Of a DNA stretch of 41,813 nucleotides, positions 116 through 30,620 are shown piece by piece; the first letter of the stretch is position 1, and every line of letters starts with the position of its first letter. The stretch comes from Saprospiraceae bacterium (GTDB lineage: Bacteria; Bacteroidota; Bacteroidia; Chitinophagales; Saprospiraceae): assembly GCA_029252685.1 (NCBI GenBank), contig JAQXAY010000286.1, forward strand, positions 1 through 41,813. The letters are read 5' to 3'. A model generated the notes under the pieces. That model had not been told where the DNA came from. It saw only the letters and a list, made by a program, of their open reading frames with translations, and ran no database searches. A program made the position numbers and the translations under genes.

Positions 116-3100
116 CTATTGTATTACGAGTTTTCGACTCATAATACCTTCTGAGGTGTTGAGCTGTATGAAATACATGCCTGGCTTAAGGCTAGAAACA
201 TCCATAACATTTTCGATCGCTTCAGGTGTTATCACCTGAATAGATTTACCCCCCATGTTAATGATTTCTCCAGAGATAATTTCAAGATCTTCTGGATAAT
301 CTATTCGAACATAATCCGAGCTAGGATTAGGACTAAGTGTTACCGATAAGTCGCGCGTTGGGATATCTTCAGTAGATTCTTCATTTGTAATACTTGCTGA
401 ATCATCCTGAAGGTTGTCTCCCGATCCAATATAGACGATGTAGTCCTCTGTTTCTCCTCTATCATATACTTCACAGGCATCTGCACTATTGTAGTATTTA
501 AGTACCACTCTAAGTTTTCTGTAGCCCTCTGGTAAACCTGCAGGTATAGTGATTTTTGAAGATTTGACACTGTTGAAGTAAGTCATAGTCTTACGGATCA
601 TTTCATTAGACTCAAATACTCCATTCATGTTGTAATCCAAGAAGAATGAGAAGTAACATATCCCATTTTCTGGAGCATCTTTAGAGAAATATATGTAGTA
701 CTTGGAATCGTCTTCAAGGTTGATTACCTCATTGGTATAGTTAAGGTATCCACCATCATTTCCTGTAGTGTTTTCCACATTTGACATTGCGAAGTAATCA
801 ATCCACTCATTGGAGGAATCTAAGCCATAAGAATCGCAATATTCTCCTGGAAGTGCATAAGAAGTTGTTGTGAATTCTAGTAAATCAGACCAGCCAGAAT
901 TTTCTCCGGTAGAGCAATCTACCTGAAGCTGCGCCTCATAATTGGTTTCTGGCAAAAGATCATCAATGGTATAGGATAGCTGATCAATATCGGTTATCGT
1001 AGTCCATATTGTATTACCAGATGTTCTATATCTAAGCGTGTAAGTTTGTGCTAAGTTTGTAGAAGACCAACTTAGTGTAGCACTATTGAAACTAAGTGAA
1101 CTCACTTCAAAAGCATCTGGAAGATAACAGGTCGAATCAACTGGTGTTAGGAAGTTGTTTTTAAATGACCATGGTGAGTTTCCAACTTGACAAACTCCAG
1201 AAACCTGCCATTCGTAAGCCGTGTTTTCATCAAGATCTGTCAGGTAGTAATTCGCCTCGTCTATTGGGCTAATAGTATCCCATTCAGAAGAATCTACAGT
1301 TCTTAGTCGCAATTGATAATAAAGGTGGAGTGTGTCTTCATTCCAAAATAGCTCTACCTCAGTTGGATTGATAATAATAGACTCCAAGCCTGTAGGACTA
1401 TTACAGCCATTACTTGTGGTGAAACTTATTTGTTCGGACCATTCGGAATCTGAAAGTGAACAGTCAGAACGAATTTCAGCAATATAGCTAGTCGTTTCTT
1501 CCAGATCTGTGAGCAGGTATTCTGTAGTGTTGATATCACTTACAAAGGTCCAAGACCCTAAAGATGATTTTCTATATCTCAAATCATATACTTCAGCTTC
1601 AGACACTTCTGTCCAAGTTAAGCGCGCCGAATATTGTTCGATATCTCCTGCTTGAAGACCCTCAGGTGCTGGACATGGCTCTTCTTCTAGACAGGTGAAA
1701 ATTGTGCTTCCTGACCATGGAGAGTCTGTTGACTCTGCGCAATTGGAGGATACTTGTACTGTATATGTGCTGCCAGCTTGTAAGGCATTCAGGTTTACAC
1801 TTGTATTATTGTAATTTGGAATTATAGTCCAACTTGAAGTTCCAAGTAGCCTATATCTAATATCATAAGAATTAGCCTCTGCCACTGTACTCCAGTTTAT
1901 AGTAGCTGTGTTTATTCCTATGTTACTCGCAGAGACTGTGGACGGTGCATCACATTGAATTGAATTTCCTCCAAGGTCCACAGTATAATCTTCTACTTCA
2001 CCGTAAGCAAAAACTTCACAGGGCGAAGGGAATGCACTGTATTTTTGACTAACTCGCATACGGGTATTTCCCTGATAAGTTGTATTCGGAATACTTATGG
2101 TGCCTGATGCAGTTCCTGACGTTGGTCCTCCGGAGAAAATCTGCTCTCCTGGATCGTCAAAATCCATATCATTATTGAAGTCTATCCAAATCCTGTAATA
2201 TTCGTTATAAACTGTACCTGAAAACCCAGGACTTATAGATACAGGATAAGTATTTCCATTTGAAAGACTTATGATTTGATCGGTATGATCACTGTATCCA
2301 CTCGTTGCAGTTCCTGATGTATTCGTAAAGTTACCTAGTGAAAAACTATTGATCCATTCATAAAAAACACTATTTCCTTGGGAGTTGCAATATTGGGACG
2401 TGCCACCGCCACCGCCGCCGCCACCGCCGCCGCCGCCGCCGCCGGTGCAGTTTCCTCCAGCTTGCGCACAAAGCACAGCTTGATGGGCATTTGCTCTACC
2501 GTTGCCATATTGACTGTCAGGTCCAGTTGGTCCCATATCGTCTGCTGTTGTAGAGATAATAGATCTTACAGTACTTGATGTCAGGTTGGGATTTGCAGCA
2601 AGTGTAAGTGCAGCAACACCAGCTACAGCTGGACATGCTGCAGATGTACCACCAAAGCTATTTGTGTAATTGCTTGATGTATAACCTGCTGAGCCCATTC
2701 TGTCTGTACTTCTTACACCTGCAGCACCATTAGAAGGAGCTACAACGTCCAAGTCAGCCCCGTAGTTTGAATAATAAGAGCGGACACCTTTATTTGTAAC
2801 GGCTCCAACGGCTATTACTGAATCAAGGTTACCTGGGTAAGTTACGCAACTAAAATTATTATTTCCCGATGCAAAAACAATCGCACAACCTAAACCATTT
2901 CTGCCATTATTAGCGGCATTGTTAATTGCATTTGTTAGTACTGAAAAGTTTAGTGAGCAACTAGAATATCCCCATGAATTTGAAATCACATCTGCCCCAT
3001 TATTTACTGACCAATTAAAGGCAGCTGCAAGGTCAGAAGTAGATTCCCCACCATAGAAAATATTTACGGAGAAAAATTTAGAATCTGGTGCCAATCCTTT

Positions 3101-4000
3101 TACACCTAGATTGTTGTGTGATGCTGTAATGATACCTGCGCAAGGTACGCCATGCTTTCCAGAGCTTTTCGGAGTCCCATTTCCATTATTTGCTGGCGTA
3201 TAGCCAGTTAACAATCGACTGTTTCCATTTGCATCATTGAAGTCTTCGTGTCCTTCAAGTCCATCGTCAATTACTGCAATCTTTATATTAGGTGACCCTG
3301 TTGTAATTGCCCACGCCTCGGGGGCATCAACATCGCAGTCAACTTGTCCAGTATGTCCATCAATAGTCTGGCCTGTATTGTGCATTTGAAATTGATACGG
3401 ATATAGTGGATCACTGAATTTTGTGACCACAGCATAAAAATCAGGATGTGCATATTCAACCAATCCACTCTCTTTGATCTCGTTTGCCAAAGGTAGAATA
3501 TTGGTGATTTGATCTGTTTCGATCAAGACGTTCCCGAATTGCTCTTCTCTCACCCATGCTTGATGTTTTGATAGGTATTCTTCAAGCAAATTGAGACTAA
3601 TGCCTCGCTTTAGACGTAGAACAACCTTGTGTGTGTTCCAGAGTGGAAAACCATCTTCAAGTTTTAGTGCTGGGGAGATACTTTTGATATCCTTTGGATC
3701 AATACCAATAGCAGTTTTCCATTGTTCTGCTGATCGTTGTATACCGTCCTTTAGAAAAAGGATCATACTGTTTTTTGCCTCGTGTATCTCAATAGATTTC
3801 AGATCGTTATCTGTACTTATTCTACTTGCCTGAGTACTTACCGATGCAGTTGAATTTAAATGTACAATTACGGATGTGTAATCTTCTGTAAGTTCGATTT
3901 TTTCGTTGTTAGACCAATAATAATTGGACTGTGCGGTTGATGTTTGGAATAGGGATACCGTCAGAAACAGTGTCAAATTCCACAGATGTTGAATTTTCAT
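116..4000 (-). CDS. Secreted subtilisin/kexin-like serine protease with GEVED, FN3 and T9SS sorting domains
   Basis: 1294 aa. The order is: signal peptide (1-24, ending TAQS); a propeptide-like region (about 60-200); an S8 peptidase domain (about 215-510) with catalytic Asp near 244 (IAVIDDGLEGHEDF), His near 283 (HGVPCAGI) and Ser near 450 (GGTSAACPAVAG); a linker of 14 glycines (520-533); a GEVED domain ending YGEVEDY; four fibronectin type III repeats (about 683-1050, each starting near a Cys); a second GEVED domain ending RGETEDY; and a T9SS type A sorting domain (about 1217-1294). The IDDG..GHEDF signature resembles the kexin/furin branch. It should cross the outer membrane through T9SS and stay on the surface or be released, degrading external protein. 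The full triad suggests it is active; its substrate is unknown. Translation starts at the ATG just before the signal peptide. Confidence 0.93.
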   Translation of the reverse strand: MKIQHLWNLTLFLTVSLFQTSTAQSNYYWSNNEKIELTEDYTSVIVHLNSTASVSTQASRISTDNDLKSIEIHEAKNSMILFLKDGIQRSAEQWKTAIGIDPKDIKSISPALKLEDGFPLWNTHKVVLRLKRGISLNLLEEYLSKHQAWVREEQFGNVLIETDQITNILPLANEIKESGLVEYAHPDFYAVVTKFSDPLYPYQFQMHNTGQTIDGHTGQVDCDVDAPEAWAITTGSPNIKIAVIDDGLEGHEDFNDANGNSRLLTGYTPANNGNGTPKSSGKHGVPCAGIITASHNNLGVKGLAPDSKFFSVNIFYGGESTSDLAAAFNWSVNNGADVISNSWGYSSCSLNFSVLTNAINNAANNGRNGLGCAIVFASGNNNFSCVTYPGNLDSVIAVGAVTNKGVRSYYSNYGADLDVVAPSNGAAGVRSTDRMGSAGYTSSNYTNSFGGTSAACPAVAGVAALTLAANPNLTSSTVRSIISTTADDMGPTGPDSQYGNGRANAHQAVLCAQAGGNCTGGGGGGGGGGGGGGTSQYCNSQGNSVFYEWINSFSLGNFTNTSGTATSGYSDHTDQIISLSNGNTYPVSISPGFSGTVYNEYYRIWIDFNNDMDFDDPGEQIFSGGPTSGTASGTISIPNTTYQGNTRMRVSQKYSAFPSPCEVFAYGEVEDYTVDLGGNSIQCDAPSTVSASNIGINTATINWSTVAEANSYDIRYRLLGTSSWTIIPNYNNTSVNLNALQAGSTYTVQVSSNCAESTDSPWSGSTIFTCLEEEPCPAPEGLQAGDIEQYSARLTWTEVSEAEVYDLRYRKSSLGSWTFVSDINTTEYLLTDLEETTSYIAEIRSDCSLSDSEWSEQISFTTSNGCNSPTGLESIIINPTEVELFWNEDTLHLYYQLRLRTVDSSEWDTISPIDEANYYLTDLDENTAYEWQVSGVCQVGNSPWSFKNNFLTPVDSTCYLPDAFEVSSLSFNSATLSWSSTNLAQTYTLRYRTSGNTIWTTITDIDQLSYTIDDLLPETNYEAQLQVDCSTGENSGWSDLLEFTTTSYALPGEYCDSYGLDSSNEWIDYFAMSNVENTTGNDGGYLNYTNEVINLEDDSKYYIYFSKDAPENGICYFSFFLDYNMNGVFESNEMIRKTMTYFNSVKSSKITIPAGLPEGYRKLRVVLKYYNSADACEVYDRGETEDYIVYIGSGDNLQDDSASITNEESTEDIPTRDLSVTLSPNPSSDYVRIDYPEDLEIISGEIINMGGKSIQVITPEAIENVMDVSSLKPGMYFIQLNTSEGIMSRKLVIQ
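2402..2443 (-). repeat. GGC/GGT triplet repeat encoding 14 glycines
   Basis: Fourteen consecutive Gly codons (11 GGC, 3 GGT) form a pure GC island in AT-rich DNA and encode the linker between the protease domain and the first GEVED domain. A tract like this can change length by replication slippage in whole codons, so the linker may vary between strains without breaking the frame. Confidence 0.95.
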
Positions 4001-17009: not shown

Positions 17010-20000
17010 ATGAATTCTACTTTAAAGTTAATATCGAGCTTGATGCTTTGCCTTTTTGTAGGTCAATTAGTATCGGCACAAAAAAATTGGGTAAGAACAC
17101 CTGCTGTTTCTCCAGACGGAAGCAGAATTGCCTTTTCTTATCAAGGAGATATATGGGTTGCAAAAGCTGATGGAAGTGACGCTAGGCGTATGACTGTGCA
17201 TGAAGCTTATGAATCCAATCCCCAATTTAGTCCAGATGGGCAGAAGATTCTTTTTGTCGGAAATAGATTTGGAAATAATGATTTATATGAGCTTTCTGCC
17301 TCAGGCGACGTAGTTCGGCTAACCTTCCATAGTACTTACGACATCAATGGTCGCTATGATCAAAACGGGAATATTCTATTTAATTCTAGAAGATTAAATG
17401 TTCATGTTGAGCGTGAACCTGAGGTTCAGATTTTAAGAAAAAATTCTGCGACTCCAGAGCGCTTTATGGCAGGTTTGGGGTATAATCCAAGTGCATCTTC
17501 AGATGGTCGTTATGTTGCTATCGAGCGAGGTTCTTGTAGGATACAGCGTGAAGCTTATCGCGGTCCTGCTCAACGGGATATTTGGATTTATGATACGAAG
17601 GAAGATTCTTATGAGCAGTTGACAAAGGATGAAGGTCAGGATATCATGCCTAATTGGACATCTGATGGTATGCTTTATTTCTTGAGTGCCCGAAATGGAA
17701 AGTATAATATTTACAGACAAAACTGGGCTTCCAGCCAAAGCATTGAGCTACAAAAGGTGAGTTCTTTCAAGGAAGATGGAATTCGCTATTTTAATGTTTC
17801 TGATAATGGGAAGTATGCTATCATCGAGCTTGCGGACGAATTGAGATTGATGGATTTGAAGAAAGGGGGTAAAGGTACACTTGTAGACTTAAATCTTCCT
17901 AAAGATAGCAGGTATGATAGCTATGAGCATAAGACGTTTAGAAATGGTTTAGGAGAGTATTCTATTTCTCCTGATGGAAAAAAGATGGCAGCTACGATTA
18001 GGGGGGAGGTTTTTATTTTTGAAAATGACAAAGAGAATAAGGTCACTAAAAATATTTCGAACAGCCCTTTCAGAGATCAAAATGCAGAATGGTTAAATGA
18101 CTCGACCTTGCTTTTTCTTTCAGACAGAACTGGCGAACGCGATTTATATATGGCATTTTCTTCCGATACAAGTAGAACCAATTTGCTAAAGAGCTACAAG
18201 GTTGAAATAAAAAAGATAAGAGATACCGATGATGATATGGCCTCTTTTATCCTTTCTCCTGACCGAACAAAAGTTGTACTTAGGGATGGAAGAGGAAAGA
18301 TGAGTGTAGCTGATATTTCAGACTCTACAGGAATACAAAATGAACTTGTATTATTAGATTCTTGGGCAACGCCATCTGGGATAAATTGGAGCCCAGATAG
18401 CAAATGGCTAGCATATTCAAAAGCTGATCTTGACTTCAATAGTGAGATTTACATTCATAAGGCCGATGGCTCAGGATCACCTATAAATATTTCTATGCAT
18501 CCACGTACTGATTCAAATCCAGTATGGAGTCTAGACGGAACAAAACTTGGTTTTGAATCTATCCGAAACAATGGTGACTCAGATTTATGGTTTGCCTGGT
18601 TGAAAAAGGAAGATTGGGAGCGAACAGATGCTGAATGGGATATGAAGGATTCCGAACAAAAGAAGTCAGATAGTATAGTTGTAGACATTGATTTGGATAA
18701 TATCTATCGAAGATTGGTGCAAGTAACTAGTCTTGCTGGGAATGAACGCAATCTTACCATCTCAAAAGATGGAGAGACCTTCTTGTTCACTACTAATGGT
18801 AGAGGCCGCGCAGGCGCAGGAGGTAAATCGGTACTTATGTCTATTAAATGGGATGGAAGTGATCTCAAAGAACTGAATAAATCGGGTAATATTTATGGTT
18901 TGACTTATGATCATTCTTCGAACAAATATTATTACCTAAACAGAGGGAATATTTATAAATCTGATAAAGGATCTAAAGGCGATAAAATTGCTTTTACAGC
19001 GAAAATGGATGTTCTGAAATATGAAGAACGTGGTCAGATTTTTGATGAAGCTTGGAGAGCATTAAATGATGGATTTTATGATCCGCAATTTCATGGTCAA
19101 GACTTTGATGCATTAAGAAAAAAATATAGACCAAGAGCATTAGCTGCATCTACTCAACAGGAATTTAGGCTTCAGTTTAATGAAATGATTGGTCAGCTTG
19201 ATGCATCGCATATGGGTATGAATGGATCCAATCCAGAGGAAACACAACGTGAGCGAACAGGTTTGATCGGTGCTGATCTGGAAGCTGAAGAAACAGGGTA
19301 TAGGGTTGTTAATGTTGTACCAGGTAGCCCAGCAGATCGTGAAGAATCTAAATTGGAAAATGGTGATTTGATTCTCTCTGTTAATGGTAAGCGCGTTTCG
19401 GCTTCCTCGAATTTTTATATGCATTTACAAGATCTTGCTAACACGAAAGTTCTTCTTGAGCTTGTTGATAAGAATGGAGCAGCCCGCGAAGTGCTCATTA
19501 CTCCGGTGTCTTCGTTGAGAACGGTGCTTTATGATGCATGGGTGAGTGAAAGAAGAAAGTTGACAGAGGAATATTCGGATGGTAAGTTAGGATATATACA
19601 TATTCGTGGAATGAACTGGCCAAGTTTTGAAAACTTTGAACGTGAACTAATGGCTTCCGGTTACGGTAAAGATGGTATAGTAATAGATGTTCGATTCAAT
19701 GGAGGAGGATGGACTACAGATATGATGATGGCTGTATTAAATGTGCGTCAGCACTCTTATACGGTTCCACGTGGTGCTACAGATAATTTGGAAAAAGACA
19801 ACAAGCGATTTGCTGACAACTATCCTTATGGAGAACGACTGCCACTTTCGAGTTGGACTCGTCCTTCTATTGCTTTGTGTAATCAGAACTCTTATTCCAA
19901 CGCTGAGATTTTCTCCCACGCCTTCAAGGCACTAGGACATGGCAAACTAGTTGGAGTACCTACCTTTGGAGCTGTGATCTCAACTGGTGGTAAAGGTTTG

Positions 20001-20180
20001 ATTGATGGCTCTTATGTTCGTATGCCATTTAGAGCTTGGTATGTAAAATCAACGGGTGAGAATATGGAACATGGACCAGCGGTTCCTGATGTAATCCTGC
20101 ATAATACTCCAGACTCAAAGTCCAAAGGACTGGATGAACAATTGAAGAAGGCAGTAGACCTGCTTCTAGAGGACATTTAA
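17010..20180 (+). CDS. Tricorn-like S41 protease, secreted
   Basis: 1056 aa. It has a signal peptide (1-23, VSAQ), then two beta-propeller regions built of TolB/WD-like repeats (about 25-640, many SPDG, SPDS and DG.. motifs), a helical segment (about 665-740, EAWRALNDGFYDPQFHG), a PDZ domain (about 755-840, VVPGSPADREESKLENGDLILSVNG in pieces) and an S41 peptidase domain (845-1045). Ser963 in NSYSNAEIFSHAFK lines up with the tricorn nucleophile, followed by GKLVGVPTFG; the acidic GENMEHGPAVPD is near the end. Archaeal tricorn degrades peptides in the cytosol; the signal peptide indicates the periplasm or surface here. A terminator follows at once. Confidence 0.92.
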   Translation: MNSTLKLISSLMLCLFVGQLVSAQKNWVRTPAVSPDGSRIAFSYQGDIWVAKADGSDARRMTVHEAYESNPQFSPDGQKILFVGNRFGNNDLYELSASGDVVRLTFHSTYDINGRYDQNGNILFNSRRLNVHVEREPEVQILRKNSATPERFMAGLGYNPSASSDGRYVAIERGSCRIQREAYRGPAQRDIWIYDTKEDSYEQLTKDEGQDIMPNWTSDGMLYFLSARNGKYNIYRQNWASSQSIELQKVSSFKEDGIRYFNVSDNGKYAIIELADELRLMDLKKGGKGTLVDLNLPKDSRYDSYEHKTFRNGLGEYSISPDGKKMAATIRGEVFIFENDKENKVTKNISNSPFRDQNAEWLNDSTLLFLSDRTGERDLYMAFSSDTSRTNLLKSYKVEIKKIRDTDDDMASFILSPDRTKVVLRDGRGKMSVADISDSTGIQNELVLLDSWATPSGINWSPDSKWLAYSKADLDFNSEIYIHKADGSGSPINISMHPRTDSNPVWSLDGTKLGFESIRNNGDSDLWFAWLKKEDWERTDAEWDMKDSEQKKSDSIVVDIDLDNIYRRLVQVTSLAGNERNLTISKDGETFLFTTNGRGRAGAGGKSVLMSIKWDGSDLKELNKSGNIYGLTYDHSSNKYYYLNRGNIYKSDKGSKGDKIAFTAKMDVLKYEERGQIFDEAWRALNDGFYDPQFHGQDFDALRKKYRPRALAASTQQEFRLQFNEMIGQLDASHMGMNGSNPEETQRERTGLIGADLEAEETGYRVVNVVPGSPADREESKLENGDLILSVNGKRVSASSNFYMHLQDLANTKVLLELVDKNGAAREVLITPVSSLRTVLYDAWVSERRKLTEEYSDGKLGYIHIRGMNWPSFENFERELMASGYGKDGIVIDVRFNGGGWTTDMMMAVLNVRQHSYTVPRGATDNLEKDNKRFADNYPYGERLPLSSWTRPSIALCNQNSYSNAEIFSHAFKALGHGKLVGVPTFGAVISTGGKGLIDGSYVRMPFRAWYVKSTGENMEHGPAVPDVILHNTPDSKSKGLDEQLKKAVDLLLEDI

Positions 20181-23347: not shown

Positions 23348-23380
23348 AAAAAAAGCCCCGATTTTTCGGGGCTTTTTTTA
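23348..23380. terminator. Bidirectional terminator between convergent kinase and rlmN
   Basis: Stem GCCCCGA/TCGGGGC with a TTTT loop (loop at 23362-23365), flanked by A7 and T7. The last bases include the rlmN stop codon. Confidence 0.92.
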
Positions 23381-24430
23381 TTCTTTGTTTGCAAGTTGTC
23401 CACAGGCGGCATCAATATCACGTCCTCTTGACTTTCGGACGGTAACCATAATTCCTTTTTTTCTCAAGTAAGAGGCAAAGGCATCTACCTTTTTTGCATC
23501 AGATCTTGAGAACTCAGAACCATCAATTGGATTATACTCAATTATGTTGATTTTGACAGGGAAGTCTGTACATAATTTAGCCAGTCTTCTCGCATCATCG
23601 ATACTATCATTATAATTCTGAAAAGAAATGTATTCGTAACTGATCTTATTGCCCGTGTTGGTATGGAAATACTGAAGGCTATCCATTAAAATTTCTAGAT
23701 TGTTCTGCTCATTAATCGGCATGATCTCATCGCGCTTAGTGTCATCCGCAGCGTGTAAAGACAGTGCAAGATTAAAACGAACCTGATCATCTGCTAGCTT
23801 TTTGATCATCTTTGCAATGCCTGCTGTACTGACTGTAATCCTTCTTGGGGACATGCCCATACCTTCTGGGGAGCTTATCTTATCAATGGATTCAAGTACG
23901 TTTTTATAGGCAAGTAGGGGCTCTCCCATACCCATGTAAACAATATTGGTTAGTTGATGTCCAAAGTGTTCTTCAGCTTGTTTGTTGACCAGATGCACTT
24001 GGTCATAGATCTCGGAGGCATCAAGATTTCTTAATCGCTTCATACGTCCAGTAGCACAGAATTTGCAGGTTAGTGAACAACCAACCTGAGAAGATACACA
24101 GACTGTGAATCTGTTGTCTCCAGGTACAGGAATTAGAACTGATTCTATAAGGTGACCATCATGCAGTTTAAAACGAGATTTGATTGTCCCGTCTGAACTC
24201 TTTTGCATTTTATCTAGTGTAATGGCATTGATTATAAAATACTGCTGCAGTTTATCTCTAAGTGGCTTAGATAGATTGGTCATCTCTTCAAAACTATGCG
24301 CTCCTTTTTCCCACAGCCATTGGTAAATCTGCTTGGCACGAAACTTCTTTTCGCCCATCTCCTCTAAAGCTGTAATAAGGTCTTCCTTACTCAACTTTCT
24401 AATATCCGTCCTTACGATTTCTTGTACCAT
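23378..24430 (-). CDS. rlmN: Dual-specificity RNA methyltransferase RlmN
   Basis: 350 aa radical SAM enzyme that methylates C2 of A2503 in 23S rRNA and A37 in some tRNAs. The 4Fe-4S cysteines are Cys118, Cys122 and Cys125 (CSLTCKFC); VYMGMGEPLLAYKNV is the GEP segment; ISPRRITVS-like MSPRRITVSTAGI follows; the second catalytic cysteine is Cys343 in DAACGQLA near the C-terminus. The N-terminal helical RNA-binding region (ALEEMGEKKFRAKQIYQWLW) is complete, and the length is usual for the family. It is encoded alone. Confidence 0.97.
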   Translation of the reverse strand: MVQEIVRTDIRKLSKEDLITALEEMGEKKFRAKQIYQWLWEKGAHSFEEMTNLSKPLRDKLQQYFIINAITLDKMQKSSDGTIKSRFKLHDGHLIESVLIPVPGDNRFTVCVSSQVGCSLTCKFCATGRMKRLRNLDASEIYDQVHLVNKQAEEHFGHQLTNIVYMGMGEPLLAYKNVLESIDKISSPEGMGMSPRRITVSTAGIAKMIKKLADDQVRFNLALSLHAADDTKRDEIMPINEQNNLEILMDSLQYFHTNTGNKISYEYISFQNYNDSIDDARRLAKLCTDFPVKINIIEYNPIDGSEFSRSDAKKVDAFASYLRKKGIMVTVRKSRGRDIDAACGQLANKE

Positions 24431-24474: not shown

Positions 24475-24508
24475 AAAAGAGCGATGCTTTAAACAGTATC
24501 GCTCTTTT
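24475..24508 (-). terminator. Terminator of the duplicated M48/barrel operon
   Basis: Stem AAAAGAGCGATGC facing GTATCGCTCTTTT (24475-24487, 24496-24508) with an 8-base loop and T6 on the minus strand. It lies immediately after the last gene of the four-gene operon. Confidence 0.85.
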
Positions 24509-24511
24509 GTC

Positions 24512-25366
24512 TTAGAGTAGCATATATTGAATACCCATGGAGAAGTTTAACTTGAGATATGTAATCAATCTCATTCTTTCTATTAAAATATCATTGACTG
24601 AATAGTTATCAAGACTTAGGTAAAAATGTTCTTCAAAACTATTGAAATTTAGATCTAAATTTCTTTCCCCAGATGTATTTGTTCTTAGGATAATTGGTAT
24701 TGAAAATCGACAATCGATATTCAGTAACAAATTTTGTGTTAATGGAATATTTCTACCCGCATTAAGAGAAACACTTAAAAAGGATTTTGTTGTTGGCTCG
24801 GTGAGTATTATGGGATATTTTACACCTGCTAAAAGAGCATTCCCTACTTCTTTTTGAATATTTAAAATATTGTATTCTAAGCCAAATGATTTGTAGGAAC
24901 CAATTGGCGCCATAGAAAGTCTGTCGGATTTTTTGAATTCAAGAAAAATAGATCTAAGATACACCCCTGTGGTCTTGACTGATTCAGCAGTAGGCACTAA
25001 GTTCATATTGATTCTATATGGTAAATTGAATATGCCTCCGGTAAGTGTTTGTAACACAGGAATCCGTTTTGTTCTTATACCTGCTCTTAAAGATTTTTTG
25101 TGTTTATAAGCATAATTTAACGAAATCTCAGGACTTATAATCCGAATAGATGCAAATCTTAGATTATTTAATACTTCGAGGTTTTCACCAATCAGGCCAT
25201 CTTTAAGACTATTACTTGCCAGATAATAATTGGAATATCTGTGGTAAATTCCATTAACCTGGATTCCAAATTTTTTTCCAAAATAACCTTGTTGAGCTAG
25301 GCTTGGGGTCACAAGAAGAATGAACAATATAGACGCTAATCCAAATTTGTGTATTGATCTTTTCAT
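24512..25366 (-). CDS. Small outer-membrane beta-barrel-like protein, copy B
   Basis: 284 aa with a signal peptide (1-24, PSLAQ) followed by GYFGKKFGIQVNG and many short alternating strands, ending MGIQYMLL. It shares start and end patterns with the 27562-28347 protein: Q(N/Q)G(F/Y)(Y/F)GK(R/K) after the signal peptide, the central APIG(T/S)Y element, and a final IQY(L/M)L. Both probably form small barrels in the outer membrane or act as soluble beta proteins. It is the last gene of the operon, two bases after the protease-like gene at 25369-27540, so each M48-type gene is followed by one of these. I recognise no family by name. Confidence 0.65.
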   Translation of the reverse strand: MKRSIHKFGLASILFILLVTPSLAQQGYFGKKFGIQVNGIYHRYSNYYLASNSLKDGLIGENLEVLNNLRFASIRIISPEISLNYAYKHKKSLRAGIRTKRIPVLQTLTGGIFNLPYRINMNLVPTAESVKTTGVYLRSIFLEFKKSDRLSMAPIGSYKSFGLEYNILNIQKEVGNALLAGVKYPIILTEPTTKSFLSVSLNAGRNIPLTQNLLLNIDCRFSIPIILRTNTSGERNLDLNFNSFEEHFYLSLDNYSVNDILIERMRLITYLKLNFSMGIQYMLL

Positions 25367-25368
25367 TT

Positions 25369-27540
25369 TTAATTATTGCTTAAGGTGGATTGAAGGTTAT
25401 ATAATTCAGATTCTAAAAAGATCTTACTGGCTTTTATATTTTTTCTAGTAAAATAATTTTGAATAAGTAATCCTTTCTCTAAATCATAAATAGTGCAATT
25501 GACATAAGTTGAGGATTTTTGAAATAATTTTTTTTCCAAAATCTTAATCATATAGGAAGGAACTAATAATTCTGATAGGTGATCGAGAGATGTAATTCCA
25601 AAATCTTTGCCAATTGCATGTATTATGGTTAATGTAGTTATGTGTTCGAAATCGTACGCTTTTAGAATGTCTTCTACGATATCTTGATTTGAAAATTTAT
25701 ATTTTATTTTGTTCCCAATTAAATCCATTTCAGCTACAAATCGAACTAATTCGCTTTTTTGGTTATATAAGGCTACTGATTCACTTTGTAGGGGATTGCA
25801 GAATTTGGCGTTAAACAGTTGATTTTTTTTGCCTATAGACTGCTCTATGTACTTAGATTTAGAAATAGATGCAGCAACATCGATACTTTTTGATTTACTT
25901 TTATATTTAATAAAATCAGAATTAATTAGTAGCGTGTTGTTATAGTTTTTACTTGGATTGATATATGTACCGTCTTCTAAATCCGCATAAATGATTTCAT
26001 CTTCTCCATCGTAATAACTATCACTCCCACCATTTAAGAATTGGTCCATTTTTGAGAGTTTAGTGCTATCTAGAGATGCAATAAATGCGGGCCTTATATA
26101 TTCACTGGACTGGGATCCACTAGCTTTTTTTGAATTGACTTCTTGCTCTTTTACTCTTAGTCTTCGTTTTGCTCTTATCCGTTCAGTTCGAGAAAGATTA
26201 ATCGTATCTATTTCTGCCAATTCATTTGTGATGTCTATGGTATCAGGTTTAGATATTAAAGATGCACTTGTTATTCGGGTGAATCTTGCAATGTCTTTTT
26301 GTATTTCTTTTTGGTATTGTTTGATAACATGATCCTCAGGAAAATTTGCTTGTATAGAATCAATCAAGGTCAGTGTTATAAGGTTAAGCTCTTCTTTGGT
26401 GAGCTTGTTTATGAAATTATTGAACGTGGAATAATCGCCTTTTATCCTCCTATCCTTGTTTTTAATTTTTGACCATTTCTTTGAGTTTGAAAATGCAGAT
26501 AATGCATAGAATCCTCGAACTAAAGCATAATTAACAAAGTAATTATCTGGATGTTTTCGCTTACAGATAAGACTGTAATAGATAGCTTTTTTAATATTAC
26601 CACGGTTAAGTTCATGATTGATCAGTTGAAATCTGGCAAGCGTTTTTATTTCGTCAAAGTCTTTATTGTTGGTGAGGAAGACCTTATTAGATACAGATGC
26701 TTCATCATAGGCAGTTTCAAGTTTTTTGATTTGATTTTGAAGGCCTTCGTGATAACTTCTATATGTTTGATTGGATTCTTTTATGGTAGCTGGTTGATAG
26801 TTATCTTCTAAATCTTTAGCTTCAAATTTGATACCAGAAATTGCAAGATCTTCAGCACTGATAGGACTAGATTCTATAACAAATTTACTGGTCTCTAATT
26901 TCTGAAGAGCTGTTATACTTGCATTTGGGTTCAAGCCGAGTTTTATCAATAATTGTAGCGCTTGTTTATTTGAGTTATTATTGATGCTTAGATCTTGAAT
27001 AATAAGTTCCTCCGCAATTATTTCATCCGTATGAAATATGGATTTATAAGATTCATTTAGGTTCGGATTAATATCGAAACTATATCCTTTAGCTTCGTTT
27101 GAAGTTCGACCCAGCATAGCTTTTCCCTTTCCCATAAAAAAGATCAACTCCGCCTCGTTTTCTAAGCTTGCAATCAATCCAGTTGTTAGAAATACAAGTT
27201 TTTCATGGTTGTGAAAAACAGCAGGGACATTTGATTTTACAAGTAGAAATTGTATGCCATCAAAGTCATTAAGAAACTTAGTTTTGAGCTGATTTAAATG
27301 ATTAGAAATGGGGTCATTGAATACGTAACTTCCCTCTTTTAAAAGGACCTTTAACATGTATTCATTATAAGCCACGGCCTTGTTTTTATTATCAGATATT
27401 CCTTCTGTGCTACTGAGATTTTTTAGGTATGTTGGCACAGGGGCTTGAGCTTTTAAGCTTCTGAATTCAGAAATGTTTTGTTGTCCGTGCGTGCTTATGT
27501 AGGGCCATAAGCAGCAAAGGAATATAGATAAATATCTCAT
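25369..27540 (-). CDS. M48-type protease paralogue with lost active site (pseudo-protease)
   Basis: 723 aa with a signal peptide (1-19, ending THGQ). It follows the plan of the 28353-30518 protein along its whole length: FRSLKAQAPVPTYL after the signal peptide, SNVPAVFHNHEKLVFLTTGLIASLENEAELIFFMG in the peptidase core, a central helical part, a F.nGGsDsYyDg motif (about 500) and a matching C-terminal region. Where the active paralogue has HEISH, this one reads KGKAM (residues 138-142), and the EADxxG glutamate motif is degraded to an EELIIQD stretch. It cannot bind zinc in the usual way, so a chaperone-like or regulatory role is more likely than proteolysis. The frame is intact over 2.2 kb, arguing against simple decay. 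Confidence 0.8.
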   Translation of the reverse strand: MRYLSIFLCCLWPYISTHGQQNISEFRSLKAQAPVPTYLKNLSSTEGISDNKNKAVAYNEYMLKVLLKEGSYVFNDPISNHLNQLKTKFLNDFDGIQFLLVKSNVPAVFHNHEKLVFLTTGLIASLENEAELIFFMGKGKAMLGRTSNEAKGYSFDINPNLNESYKSIFHTDEIIAEELIIQDLSINNNSNKQALQLLIKLGLNPNASITALQKLETSKFVIESSPISAEDLAISGIKFEAKDLEDNYQPATIKESNQTYRSYHEGLQNQIKKLETAYDEASVSNKVFLTNNKDFDEIKTLARFQLINHELNRGNIKKAIYYSLICKRKHPDNYFVNYALVRGFYALSAFSNSKKWSKIKNKDRRIKGDYSTFNNFINKLTKEELNLITLTLIDSIQANFPEDHVIKQYQKEIQKDIARFTRITSASLISKPDTIDITNELAEIDTINLSRTERIRAKRRLRVKEQEVNSKKASGSQSSEYIRPAFIASLDSTKLSKMDQFLNGGSDSYYDGEDEIIYADLEDGTYINPSKNYNNTLLINSDFIKYKSKSKSIDVAASISKSKYIEQSIGKKNQLFNAKFCNPLQSESVALYNQKSELVRFVAEMDLIGNKIKYKFSNQDIVEDILKAYDFEHITTLTIIHAIGKDFGITSLDHLSELLVPSYMIKILEKKLFQKSSTYVNCTIYDLEKGLLIQNYFTRKNIKASKIFLESELYNLQSTLSNN

Positions 27541-27561
27541 TATGATTTTTTGAGGTTTTCT

Positions 27562-28347
27562 TTAATATAGAAGGTATTGAATAGAAAATAACAGTCTTGG
27601 TAAATTTCTTTGGAATCGCACTGCGTCAAATTGTAGTGCGTTTTCAATATTACCATACTGAGATTCAGGGATTGTAAAATTACCGGATAATTCATTCTGC
27701 TCCAGCTCTACTTTTTCTTGAGTTAAACGAAAAGACAGAAAAGTGGTATTATCTAGTAAATAAATTCCATTAAATCTTAGGTGTATATCTAGTAATAATC
27801 GTTTACCTAATGGAATTACTTTACCCATTGTAATGTAATAGTCGTTTATGAAGAAATCAGTTTGAATAGTTTGTTCCAGAGGAATCTGATAGTTAGTCCC
27901 ATTTTCCCTTTGAGCTTCAATAGTGCCTCTATTCATACTGTATTTATTGATCCCTATTCCAATACCAAGGTATGTTCCAATAGGAGCATAGCTATTTTTT
28001 CTAAAAAGTCTTTGTTCTAAGAATATTGATTGTACTTGTTGAATGGGAAAACTAACTTCAGTAAATAAATCTTCATAATAATTCATTCCCTCGGTCTTAA
28101 AATTGATCCTTCTTAGGTAATCAACTTTACCCGCTGAGTAATCAATAGCAAACTGCCCTCTGCCTCCCATTGCATATCTTAATCCTAGATTTAATGTTGG
28201 CTTGGCTGTTTTGATAGCCGGCAAAAAGTTTGGTCTGTTTAACAGTACTGCACCAGCAACACTTAGGCGTTTCCCATAAAACCCATTTTGAGCTTGGCAA
28301 AAACCGATAGATACGAAGAATAATAGCAGGTATATAAACTGTTTCAT
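27562..28347 (-). CDS. Small outer-membrane beta-barrel-like protein, copy A
   Basis: 261 aa with a signal peptide (1-19, CQAQ), then NGFYGKRLSVAGAVLL and about eight to ten strand-like segments (for example YLGIGIGINKYSM, LLLDIHLRFNGIYLL), ending LLFSIQYLLY with a C-terminal aromatic as in barrel proteins. It starts 5 bases after the active M48-type gene and precedes its degenerate copy by 21 bases. It is a distant paralogue of the 24512-25366 protein. A role as dedicated partner or substrate of the adjacent protease is inference from the repeated pairing. Confidence 0.66.
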   Translation of the reverse strand: MKQFIYLLLFFVSIGFCQAQNGFYGKRLSVAGAVLLNRPNFLPAIKTAKPTLNLGLRYAMGGRGQFAIDYSAGKVDYLRRINFKTEGMNYYEDLFTEVSFPIQQVQSIFLEQRLFRKNSYAPIGTYLGIGIGINKYSMNRGTIEAQRENGTNYQIPLEQTIQTDFFINDYYITMGKVIPLGKRLLLDIHLRFNGIYLLDNTTFLSFRLTQEKVELEQNELSGNFTIPESQYGNIENALQFDAVRFQRNLPRLLFSIQYLLY

Positions 28348-28352
28348 GGTTA

Positions 28353-30518
28353 TTATTTAATGCTTAGGGTTTCGTTTAATTCGATAAGTTCCTGCCCTAT
28401 TAAGATTTTATAAGGGGTGTTTTGGTTTTTCTTGAAATAAAAATATTCAAGCCTGTCTTCGTTTGCATTGAAAATCGCAGCAGCGGTAAAGAGGGCTTTC
28501 TTATTGAATATTATATCGTATAATCTAACATGTCCAAGCTTTGGCAGAAATAGAATCCAATAACCTAAAGGGTTAAGAGCTCTTGTATTTCCAACAGTAA
28601 AAGAGAAACAATTAAGTGTTGAAAAATAATTCGTCTTGTATTTATTTTGGAGTACTGTTATTTGGTCGTGGAAATTTGAATGAAAATTAAAATCTGAGCT
28701 TACTGGTCCAACATCATTCATCCAAAGCATAATTGTGGCTAAATCATTATACGCTTCTATGTCCTCTTGTCTCATAAGACTTCTGTCAAGGATTTGAATA
28801 CCTTTATAATAATCTGTATCCGTAAGATGATTTATCATAAAACCTTTTTTACGCTCATTTTTTAAAAGGTTGCTGTTGAATTTATAACCTTTGAATCCAG
28901 CATAATTTGGTGAGATGTATAAAATGTTTTTATAGTTTGTTTGTGGGAATTTGCCATAGATTTTATTCGGAAGCTTCGAATAATCTGCTCGTAGGAAATT
29001 GTAACCATCGTCTTGGTAATCATCTCCTCCACCGTCGAAGAAATTTGCTCCATACTCCTTAATGTCTTTTTCTGAGAAGGCAGTGTTAAAGTATTCTTCC
29101 AAGTAGTTGTACTCTTCTTCCGTAGGCGTGTCATAAGAGCTTGAATTGTCTGTGCTCGTTTCGGTTTTGGGTCTGTTAAAATGGTCTGTTTTGATATTTG
29201 TATAGATTTTACAATTCGATGCGATAAGGTCAAAATAGGTTTTCACCTCCTTGTCTTCAGGGAATTTTTTAAGAGCATCAATTGCCTTGGATGCAGCAAT
29301 TACATTGACTCCTTCCTTAGAAATGGAATTAAAGTAATTATACAAATAAGATATTTCACCTTCATCGTTGCCGTTGATCTCAAAACATAGTTCAGTCTCT
29401 TCAGCATTAAAGAGGGTAGCTAAACCATACAAGGCTTTCAATTCGGATAGCAAAATGAATCTATTTGATGGCATATCCTTTTTTACCATGTTGATATGAT
29501 ATATGGCGCGGATATAATTTTTATCAACTAAATAATTGTTGATTAGAGATAAACGGGCAAGGTTTCTCGCTTTAAAGAATCTGTCTTCGCTGATAATAAA
29601 TTTTGCTCTGTTAGCCTTGTCGTATAAATCTATAACATTATAAGATTCTTCAATTCTAGTCTTGATATTAGGGTGGGTATGATCGGAATCATCATAATCT
29701 TCAACTGCCGTGATTTCATTATATTCCTTATAAAGAATTGAATCAGGGATATGAAGATGTCCACATTGAAGATGGGATTTGTCAAATTTTCTGTCTTCAA
29801 TTGGAAGATAAGAGTACATCAAAATGTAAAAGGCATTTTCTATTGCTTCAAAGTCATAATCACTATCCGCATAGAGTTCGATGCCTCTTTTATCTGCTTC
29901 TAATTCTTGAGTTTTTTTGTACTTATGGACATTCTTTATGAGGTTTTTATTTCTGCGTGAATTTTTTGAGTTTAAATCATTCTCACCATCATCTATTCCT
30001 TCGTCAAGGTCTAATTGAAATTTTAGGGCATGTTTTTCAGTATAATGACTGATTTCATGGGCCATAATAAATGCAAGTTCGGCTTCGCTTTCCATCTGAG
30101 CGATAAGTCCAGAGGTGAAAAAAATTAGGCCTTGTGGTGTGGTGAATGCATTTGGTATATCAGACTTTAAGGTAAATATTTGTAGCTCCTTAGCTAACTT
30201 TGGCTTGTCTTTTAAAAGGTAAGCGGCAATATCTTCTAAGTATTTGGAAATCGTATCATTAAAAACGATTTGACCCTGATTGACAAAGAAATCTACAGTG
30301 TAGGCAGTTGATAAGGCGAAGTCTTTTAGATCAGACTTGTTAGTTACCTCGGCTTCAAGCTTTTTGAGGTTTTTTTCGTATCTGGATTCGAGGGGTTCAA
30401 GCAGAATATTTGGGATTGGACCCTCAGCTTTTAAAATTCTAAAGTTTTCTATTTCTTTTTGAGCATTGCAAAAAAATGCCAAAATTAGAAATACGAACAG
30501 GGGTAGACTGTATTTCAT
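28353..30518 (-). CDS. Secreted M48-family metalloprotease with unknown C-terminal domain
   Basis: 721 aa with a signal peptide (1-19, CNAQ). The peptidase core carries HEISH (His154, Glu155, His158) inside AFIMAHEISHYTEKHAL, and the third zinc ligand Glu207 in ELEADKRGIELY, the M48 arrangement. Before the core lies TLKSDIPNAFTTPQGLIFFTSGLI, the usual strand of the fold, as in periplasmic M48 enzymes such as BepA. A helical, repeat-like region follows (about 300-440). The last 220 residues, from FFDGGGDDYQDDGYNF (about 495), match only the paralogue in the next pair and no domain I know. It is the first gene of the four-gene operon. Probable periplasmic or outer-membrane-associated protease involved in envelope protein quality control. 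Confidence 0.85.
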   Translation of the reverse strand: MKYSLPLFVFLILAFFCNAQKEIENFRILKAEGPIPNILLEPLESRYEKNLKKLEAEVTNKSDLKDFALSTAYTVDFFVNQGQIVFNDTISKYLEDIAAYLLKDKPKLAKELQIFTLKSDIPNAFTTPQGLIFFTSGLIAQMESEAELAFIMAHEISHYTEKHALKFQLDLDEGIDDGENDLNSKNSRRNKNLIKNVHKYKKTQELEADKRGIELYADSDYDFEAIENAFYILMYSYLPIEDRKFDKSHLQCGHLHIPDSILYKEYNEITAVEDYDDSDHTHPNIKTRIEESYNVIDLYDKANRAKFIISEDRFFKARNLARLSLINNYLVDKNYIRAIYHINMVKKDMPSNRFILLSELKALYGLATLFNAEETELCFEINGNDEGEISYLYNYFNSISKEGVNVIAASKAIDALKKFPEDKEVKTYFDLIASNCKIYTNIKTDHFNRPKTETSTDNSSSYDTPTEEEYNYLEEYFNTAFSEKDIKEYGANFFDGGGDDYQDDGYNFLRADYSKLPNKIYGKFPQTNYKNILYISPNYAGFKGYKFNSNLLKNERKKGFMINHLTDTDYYKGIQILDRSLMRQEDIEAYNDLATIMLWMNDVGPVSSDFNFHSNFHDQITVLQNKYKTNYFSTLNCFSFTVGNTRALNPLGYWILFLPKLGHVRLYDIIFNKKALFTAAAIFNANEDRLEYFYFKKNQNTPYKILIGQELIELNETLSIK

Positions 30519-30582: not shown

Positions 30583-30612
30583 TAAAAAAAAAAGGCCCTT
30601 AAGTAGGGCCTT
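30583..30612 (-). terminator. Terminator of pckA
   Basis: Stem AAGGCCC/GGGCCTT (30592-30598 with 30606-30612), a 7-base loop, and an uninterrupted T10 on the minus strand. Only 64 bases separate it from the M48 gene start, so that operon's promoter must be very close to the gene. Confidence 0.88.
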
Positions 30613-30620
30613 CTTAATTT

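Follow-up and report, generated by a model that had tools for sequence, protein, structure and literature searches.

The window analysed here, a 41,813-nucleotide stretch of contig JAQXAY010000286.1 of a Saprospiraceae bacterium (assembly GCA_029252685.1), carries an operon that is composed of two tandem copies of a unit made of an M48 protease-type gene and a small barrel gene. All four genes were found on the minus strand and encode, in the order of transcription, an active-type M48 protease of 721 aa (A721, positions 28353-30518), a barrel of 261 aa (barrel 1, 27562-28347), a protein of 723 aa that is homologous to the protease over its full length and has lost the metal ligands (A723, 25369-27540), and a second barrel of 284 aa (barrel 2, 24512-25366). 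The coordinates of the open reading frames (ORFs) reproduced the gene order and the gaps of 5, 21 and 2 bases that had been given in a first-pass annotation of the same DNA. A terminator had also been placed at the end of the operon, and a hairpin followed by a run of T was indeed read by eye on the minus strand at 24475-24508 (running from 24508 to 24475, with an 11-pair stem and a 12-base loop).

A721 and A723 were aligned end to end with 21% identity (E 6e-31), and the barrels were homologous as well, in agreement with the earlier claim that the two proteases share one plan. In A721 an M48 domain (residues 109-291) was followed by TPR-like helices (approximately 311-440) and by a C-terminal domain (CTD, approximately 529-721; positions 28356-28934, minus strand). 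A signal-peptide-like N-terminus, recognized by eye, suggests a periplasmic location of A721. The Pfam M48 family (PF01435) matched A721 with 76.7 bits against a cut-off of 20.3. The HEISH motif (residues 154-158, positions 30045-30059, minus strand) and E205, located within an ELEAD motif and, as known for M48, the third zinc ligand, were found in conserved columns of the family alignment, which assigns A721 to M48. In A723 the sequence KGKAM stands opposite HEISH and NNNSN opposite ELEAD, and the columns of the ligand and catalytic residues H, E, H and E are occupied by K, G, M and N. The residues of an active M48 peptidase are thus missing from A723, and its Pfam scan gave no family, M48 included. 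Judged by its alignment, A723 is a non-catalytic M48 homologue.

The conservation of these residues was assessed in 64 proteases with a fused CTD from the fetched loci, the two of the window included. The aligned His-Glu-His was retained in 61 of them and the third-ligand Glu together with the Asp in 62. The exceptions were A723 and its orthologue in another genome of this genus (G001), where all were lost, and one partial row that was too short to reach HExxH. Since the ligands are absent from both A723 and its orthologue, the loss is older than the split of the two species. The order of the four genes and the flanking genes were identical in G001, where a contig break falls inside the dead protease (L036, L037); the dead reading frame was open in both congeners, in G001 as two contig pieces. 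Protein identities between the window and G001 were 72% for the 721-aa, 57% for the 261-aa, 48% for the 723-aa (measured on one contig piece) and 81% for the 284-aa protein. Apart from the operon, the 3.4 Mb genome of the window, in which the operon lies on contig C136, contained one other Pfam M48 match, a 283-residue frame on contig C183.

The two barrels were aligned over 99 residues with 33% identity (E 4e-8). Barrel 1 carries the motifs GFYGKR near the N-terminus and APIGTY further on, and its model, built from four sequences, showed eight long strands with a mean predicted local distance difference test (pLDDT) score of 65. The model matched the N-domain of OprF (Z 15.4), OmpW (Z 14.5) and OmpA (Z 14.3), and the barrels are probably of the outer-membrane type. 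Naming the barrel by sequence was tried and rejected: no PDB entry matched below E 0.47, and the members scanned with Pfam and NCBIfam gave weak matches only, all under the cut-offs.

The first-pass annotation had proposed a functional partnership of each protease with its barrel, and the distribution of the two genes across genomes bore this out. Profiles were prepared for the part of the protease outside the M48 domain (A1) and for the barrel (A2); A2 was built from genes picked for lying beside the protease, and A723 and both barrels of the window were among the profile-building rows for the loci. Across the order, 396 genomes were drawn evenly; A1 was recorded in 56 of them, A2 in 56 and both in 50 (odds ratio 464; Fisher p ~1e-49, which overstates independence as the genomes are related). 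When the profile-building genomes were left out, the numbers were 46, 46 and 41 of 385. Some of the 56 protease matches were weak or confined to the TPR part (G352, G387). In a draw of 395 genomes across the phylum, the window's own genome alone matched A1 or A2 (0 of 394 others). Four candidates for A1 and six for A2 were scored per genome in both scans, therefore the counts are lower bounds. Among 100 relatives, 88 matched A721 at E 0.001, mostly over a short M48 stretch, while A1 was present in 15 and A2 in 16, the own genome included. Neither profile matched the third genome of the genus (G002, 87% complete). A metagenome-assembled genome (MAG) titled Flavobacteriales (L035) carries a 740-aa protease followed after 15 bases by a 284-aa protein, which lay outside the profile scoring and aligned with the barrels of the window (24% identity to barrel 1). 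The unit was seen in one order, and the barrel only there and in this one MAG.

Further, the two genes were found to be tightly linked. A family barrel on the same strand within 1 kb was recorded for 51 of the 64 fused proteases; the largest gap was 927 bases, and the median was 5. Of these barrels, 47 were within 100 bases, 47 were downstream, and 14 overlapped the protease gene (-4). Four of the 13 proteases without an adjacent barrel end less than 300 bases from the downstream contig edge (L057, L083, L093, L096), and at L060 an upstream barrel was present and was missed by ORF calling. The profile scan reported the barrel of G243:C103, which ORF calling missed, and two protease matches were left unfetched (G393:C30, with a score equal to that of G336, and G358:C1:272062). 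A tandem arrangement that was unique to the genus of the window was also considered and rejected. A different family of the order supplies the counterexample: at G065:C87 (L040:2-4203) a fused protease truncated by the contig start is followed by a barrel 1 base on and by a complete active protease 85 bases on, so that tandem proteases occur in more than one lineage. The barrel of this locus, counted as upstream of one protease, is also downstream of another.

The CTD was fused to the protease in the 64 genes above and separate at a few other loci. At L053, L100, L101 and L112 it is encoded separately (227-247 aa), with the protease part on one side and the barrel on the other, and the M48-TPR part ends early, at 463-492 aa; at L100 this part is split over three ORFs. 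At the contig start of L111 a piece of the CTD precedes a barrel, and the protease part was not seen. The four complete split CTD genes all contain a lipobox by a loose pattern, and two of the four by a strict one; the strict lipobox was found in none of the 64 fused proteases. Fusion in some genomes and separation in others is usually a sign of parts that act together. A third architecture was observed at L054, L107 and L108, outside the set of 64, where the family barrel has as its neighbour an M48-type protein (743-771 aa) in which no CTD was recognised.

The distances of proteases and barrels were correlated over 48 pairs with r 0.74, which in part reflects the common ancestry of the genomes (maximum of 0.42 in 2000 shuffles). 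The nearest neighbour was common to both gene types in 30 of the 48 pairs and in at most 6 in 500 shuffles. When barrels were swapped within each of six genomes with two pairs, r dropped clearly in five and hardly in G024. In G101 and G114, which carry two units each, L071 and L076 were sisters and L070 and L077 were sisters in both trees, and the two types of unit remained separate. The partnership is therefore supported by the co-occurrence, the tight adjacency and the correlated distances, the last of which is partly explained by shared genome ancestry.

The origin of the two units of the window was examined with the same trees, from which five protease rows (L055, L057, L058, L062, L113) and six barrel rows (L055, L011, L041, one of L109, L114, L102) were omitted. 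The free trees united the window copies with their orthologues (SH-aLRT 99 for the proteases and 95 for the barrels), with a long-branch warning. In chosen subsets of 27, 29 and 35-37 rows, the approximately unbiased (AU) test and leave-one-copy-out runs were performed. A tree with the dead copy constrained to another clade reached a likelihood 5.6 above that of the free tree found (p-AU 0.62), and the remaining copy obtained different nearest rows after its partner was left out (27-row and 35-37-row subsets). The sister placement was therefore rejected as proof of a lineage-specific duplication. One unit had been said to be duplicated and kept in order: the tandem order and the joining of the copies at 99 and 95 agree with this, but the alternative placement was not rejected and a single duplication within the lineage is not established. 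The tandem order itself is plain and likely derives from one duplication.

An analogy with BepA had been drawn as well, and it held in architecture. BepA of Escherichia coli (YfgC, M48 family) has an M48 domain followed by TPR-like helices, and the same succession was predicted in the A721 model. A Foldseek search with this model gave BepA as the top solved structure (6ait and 6sar, E 1.9e-6), and a VIA comparison with BepA aligned 206 residues with Z 16.4 and rmsd 3.4. By sequence, the protease profile placed BepA second among solved structures (E 1.4e-10, positions 73-164, about 90 residues), after another M48 peptidase. The NCBIfam equivalog of BepA (NF052400) reached 47.7 bits over residues 80-164 of A721, far under its cut-off of 570. 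The protease also differs from BepA in the extra CTD of about 200 residues, the barrel gene alongside and the dead paralogue. Each model rested on four sequences, which left the CTD part weak: the mean pLDDT of A721 was 50.4, with better values in the M48 and TPR parts.

With low confidence, the modelled CTD resembles the fold of the TolB N-domain, PelC and FlgT. Residues 523-721 of A721 were matched by VIA to FlgT (Z 8.7), TolB (6.8-7.9), HpaA (6.7) and PelC (6.1-6.7), and Z values under 8 are common in such comparisons. The whole model was matched weakly by Foldseek to GNA1162, CsgG and LpoB (E 0.05-0.3, ranges not given). These proteins share one fold type. Naming the CTD by sequence was rejected, since any Pfam family that matched did so in at most one of the 64 members, the best being DUF6340 at E 0.0038, and no PDB entry matched below E 0.17. 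The CTD is set apart from TolB-N, FlgT, PelC and HpaA by its fusion to a protease and by the lack of a Pfam family or a PDB sequence match; its split forms are lipoprotein-like. The barrel is likewise similar to the eight-stranded OmpA, OmpW and OprF in model fold (Z 14-15), and unlike them it forms its own sequence family that is tied to an M48 protease gene.

In Bacteroidota, the β-barrel assembly machinery (BAM) with BamG, BamH, BamM and BamP also combines barrel and lipoprotein parts and acts in outer-membrane protein biogenesis, according to the available parts of PMC12611786 and PMC12578637. BamG is a FadL relative that occurs phylum-wide with BamH (PMC12611786, available part), whereas the barrel described here is small and was seen in one order and one MAG. 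The words 'M48', 'BepA' and 'metalloprotease' are absent from the available text of PMC12611786 and PMC12578637. No description of the protease-barrel unit was found in a literature search of open-licence papers. The two-gene unit is so far unnamed.

It was proposed that the module is a dedicated outer-membrane assembly and quality-control unit whose second copy works without proteolysis. This proposal draws on the analogy with BepA, and we give it a little less than an even chance. The TPR helices and the CTD would keep the protease against its own barrel on the periplasmic side of the outer membrane. Outer-membrane cargo, either the barrel itself or proteins handled with it, would be assisted and policed by the module as it folds or is delivered. 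Such an activity would parallel the action of BepA on the outer-membrane barrel LptD, which BepA both helps and destroys (PMC8423444, available part). The dead copy of the second unit may retain the docking and chaperone part with the cutting part dropped, so that the first unit would assist and degrade and the second would only assist or scaffold.

Several observations weigh against this proposal. At L110 (G031), three barrels are accompanied by lipoproteins but by no recognised protease, and the barrel may act independently. Two of the 13 proteases without an adjacent barrel belong to G031 and G204, which carry the barrel elsewhere in the genome. Six of the 64 proteases, also among these 13 and all from genus g58 (L050, L051, L058, L059, L062, L113), have a neighbour of another kind, 227-237 aa, where the barrel would be. 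The CTD fold was taken from a model with a pLDDT mostly below 50 in that part. The true within-genome pairing ranked only 7th of 64 in the swap test, and the dead copy is the most diverged of the four genes between the congeners (48% against 57-81%), which could be decay.

The last two points were also taken to favour plain co-expression, that is, an envelope operon whose products make no contact and whose dead protease is a decaying duplicate: the swap test is weak, and gene adjacency does not show contact. This was judged improbable, as it is opposed by the joint presence and absence in 396 genomes with the tight adjacency, by the matching sister pairs in the two-unit genomes, and by a dead frame that is uninterrupted in the window and also in the two contig pieces of a congener that differs at about half of the residues. 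A small secretion or sensing system, with the barrel as channel or receptor, the protease processing passing material and the dead copy serving as a receptor, seems more improbable still. The small-barrel model and the CTD model matches point towards it, since PelC and CsgG are parts of outer-membrane transport systems (the CsgG match, at E 0.06 and above, is weak and concerns the model as a whole). Eight-stranded barrels, on the other hand, usually have no open pore, and no cargo gene common to all loci was seen at the compared loci.

Delivery or maturation of surface lipoproteins by the module was regarded as unlikely, with a better claim than either of these. The barrel would then serve as a platform for export or anchoring, and lipoprotein cargo encoded nearby would be handled by the protease and its CTD. 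A strict lipobox was present in 15 of 46 same-strand run-mates, compared with 28 of the 585 remaining ORFs at those loci, and three unlike kinds of lipoprotein recur: one that follows the barrel in family f8 and has about 240 aa, one with DGIxNGxExGxDCGG (L047, L099) and one with QYEGPYxD (L061, L064, L110). Additionally, in the BAM structure of Flavobacterium the outer-membrane protein BamG anchors the surface lipoprotein BamH (PMC12611786, available part). Against this, a lipoprotein run-mate is absent from the operon of the window and from most loci, and the 15 of 46 are not 15 independent events, as the f8 loci are closely related. A bolder reading was considered possible but doubtful, and more tentative than the assembly and quality-control proposal: one order of Bacteroidota would possess an outer-membrane machine, so far undescribed, made up of a protease-TPR part, a dedicated barrel and a TolB-N/PelC-like lipoprotein domain that is either fused or separate. 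Some lineages would have lipoprotein clients encoded beside it, and in the genus of the window the machine would have been doubled, where one protease would now be a non-proteolytic arm still working with its own barrel.

The lipoprotein-like neighbours in related loci, which like the CTD and the split loci were absent from the first-pass annotation, were recorded as follows. The f8 gene stands after the barrel at L066, L068, L069, L078, L080, L081, L082, L084 and L086 and encodes 234-247 aa (161 aa at L066, near a contig end). The post-barrel lipoprotein with repeats at L047 and L099 is unrelated to the f8 kind. At L061, L064 and L110 a lipoprotein-like neighbour of the barrel has 291-297 aa and carries QYEGPYxD or a near form close to the Cys; L110 holds two lipoproteins. 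The barrels were also multiplied by themselves, with two at L072, three at L091 and three at L110, and the neighbour protein of g58 has a signal-peptide-like start in the sequences inspected. The barrel 2 gene looks as if it was recently exchanged between species, because its synonymous divergence (dS) from L037:1811-2659 is low (~0.40), while the better-conserved neighbouring 350-aa gene (23378-24430) has 94% protein identity between the congeners and yet a saturated dS that could not be computed, and the DNA identity between the congeners jumps near the start of barrel 2.

A mobile origin of the proteases was rejected after A721 was compared with plasmids (three partial M48 matches, covering 20% at most) and A723 with phages (no match). 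A hairpin scan reported a terminator-like site at 30589-30615 (minus strand), between an upstream 536-aa gene and the operon. The scan by itself is weak evidence, with six such sites against a mean of 4.1 in shuffles; the hairpin at the operon end was absent from its output, as loops of up to 8 bases were scanned. Elsewhere in the window, positions 119-4000 encode a 1294-aa subtilase with GEVED, fibronectin III and Por_Secre_tail sorting domains, and positions 17010-20180 encode a tricorn-like S41 protease of 1056 aa that contains a PDZ domain and WD40-like repeats.

The BAM complex of this phylum has only just been described, and the operon presents a BepA-like protease that is evolutionarily tied to one small barrel gene and exists in fused and split forms of the machine. 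One genus offers a natural catalytic knock-out beside the active form. If the proposed role is true, the division between the chaperone and the protease work of M48 proteins would become directly testable.

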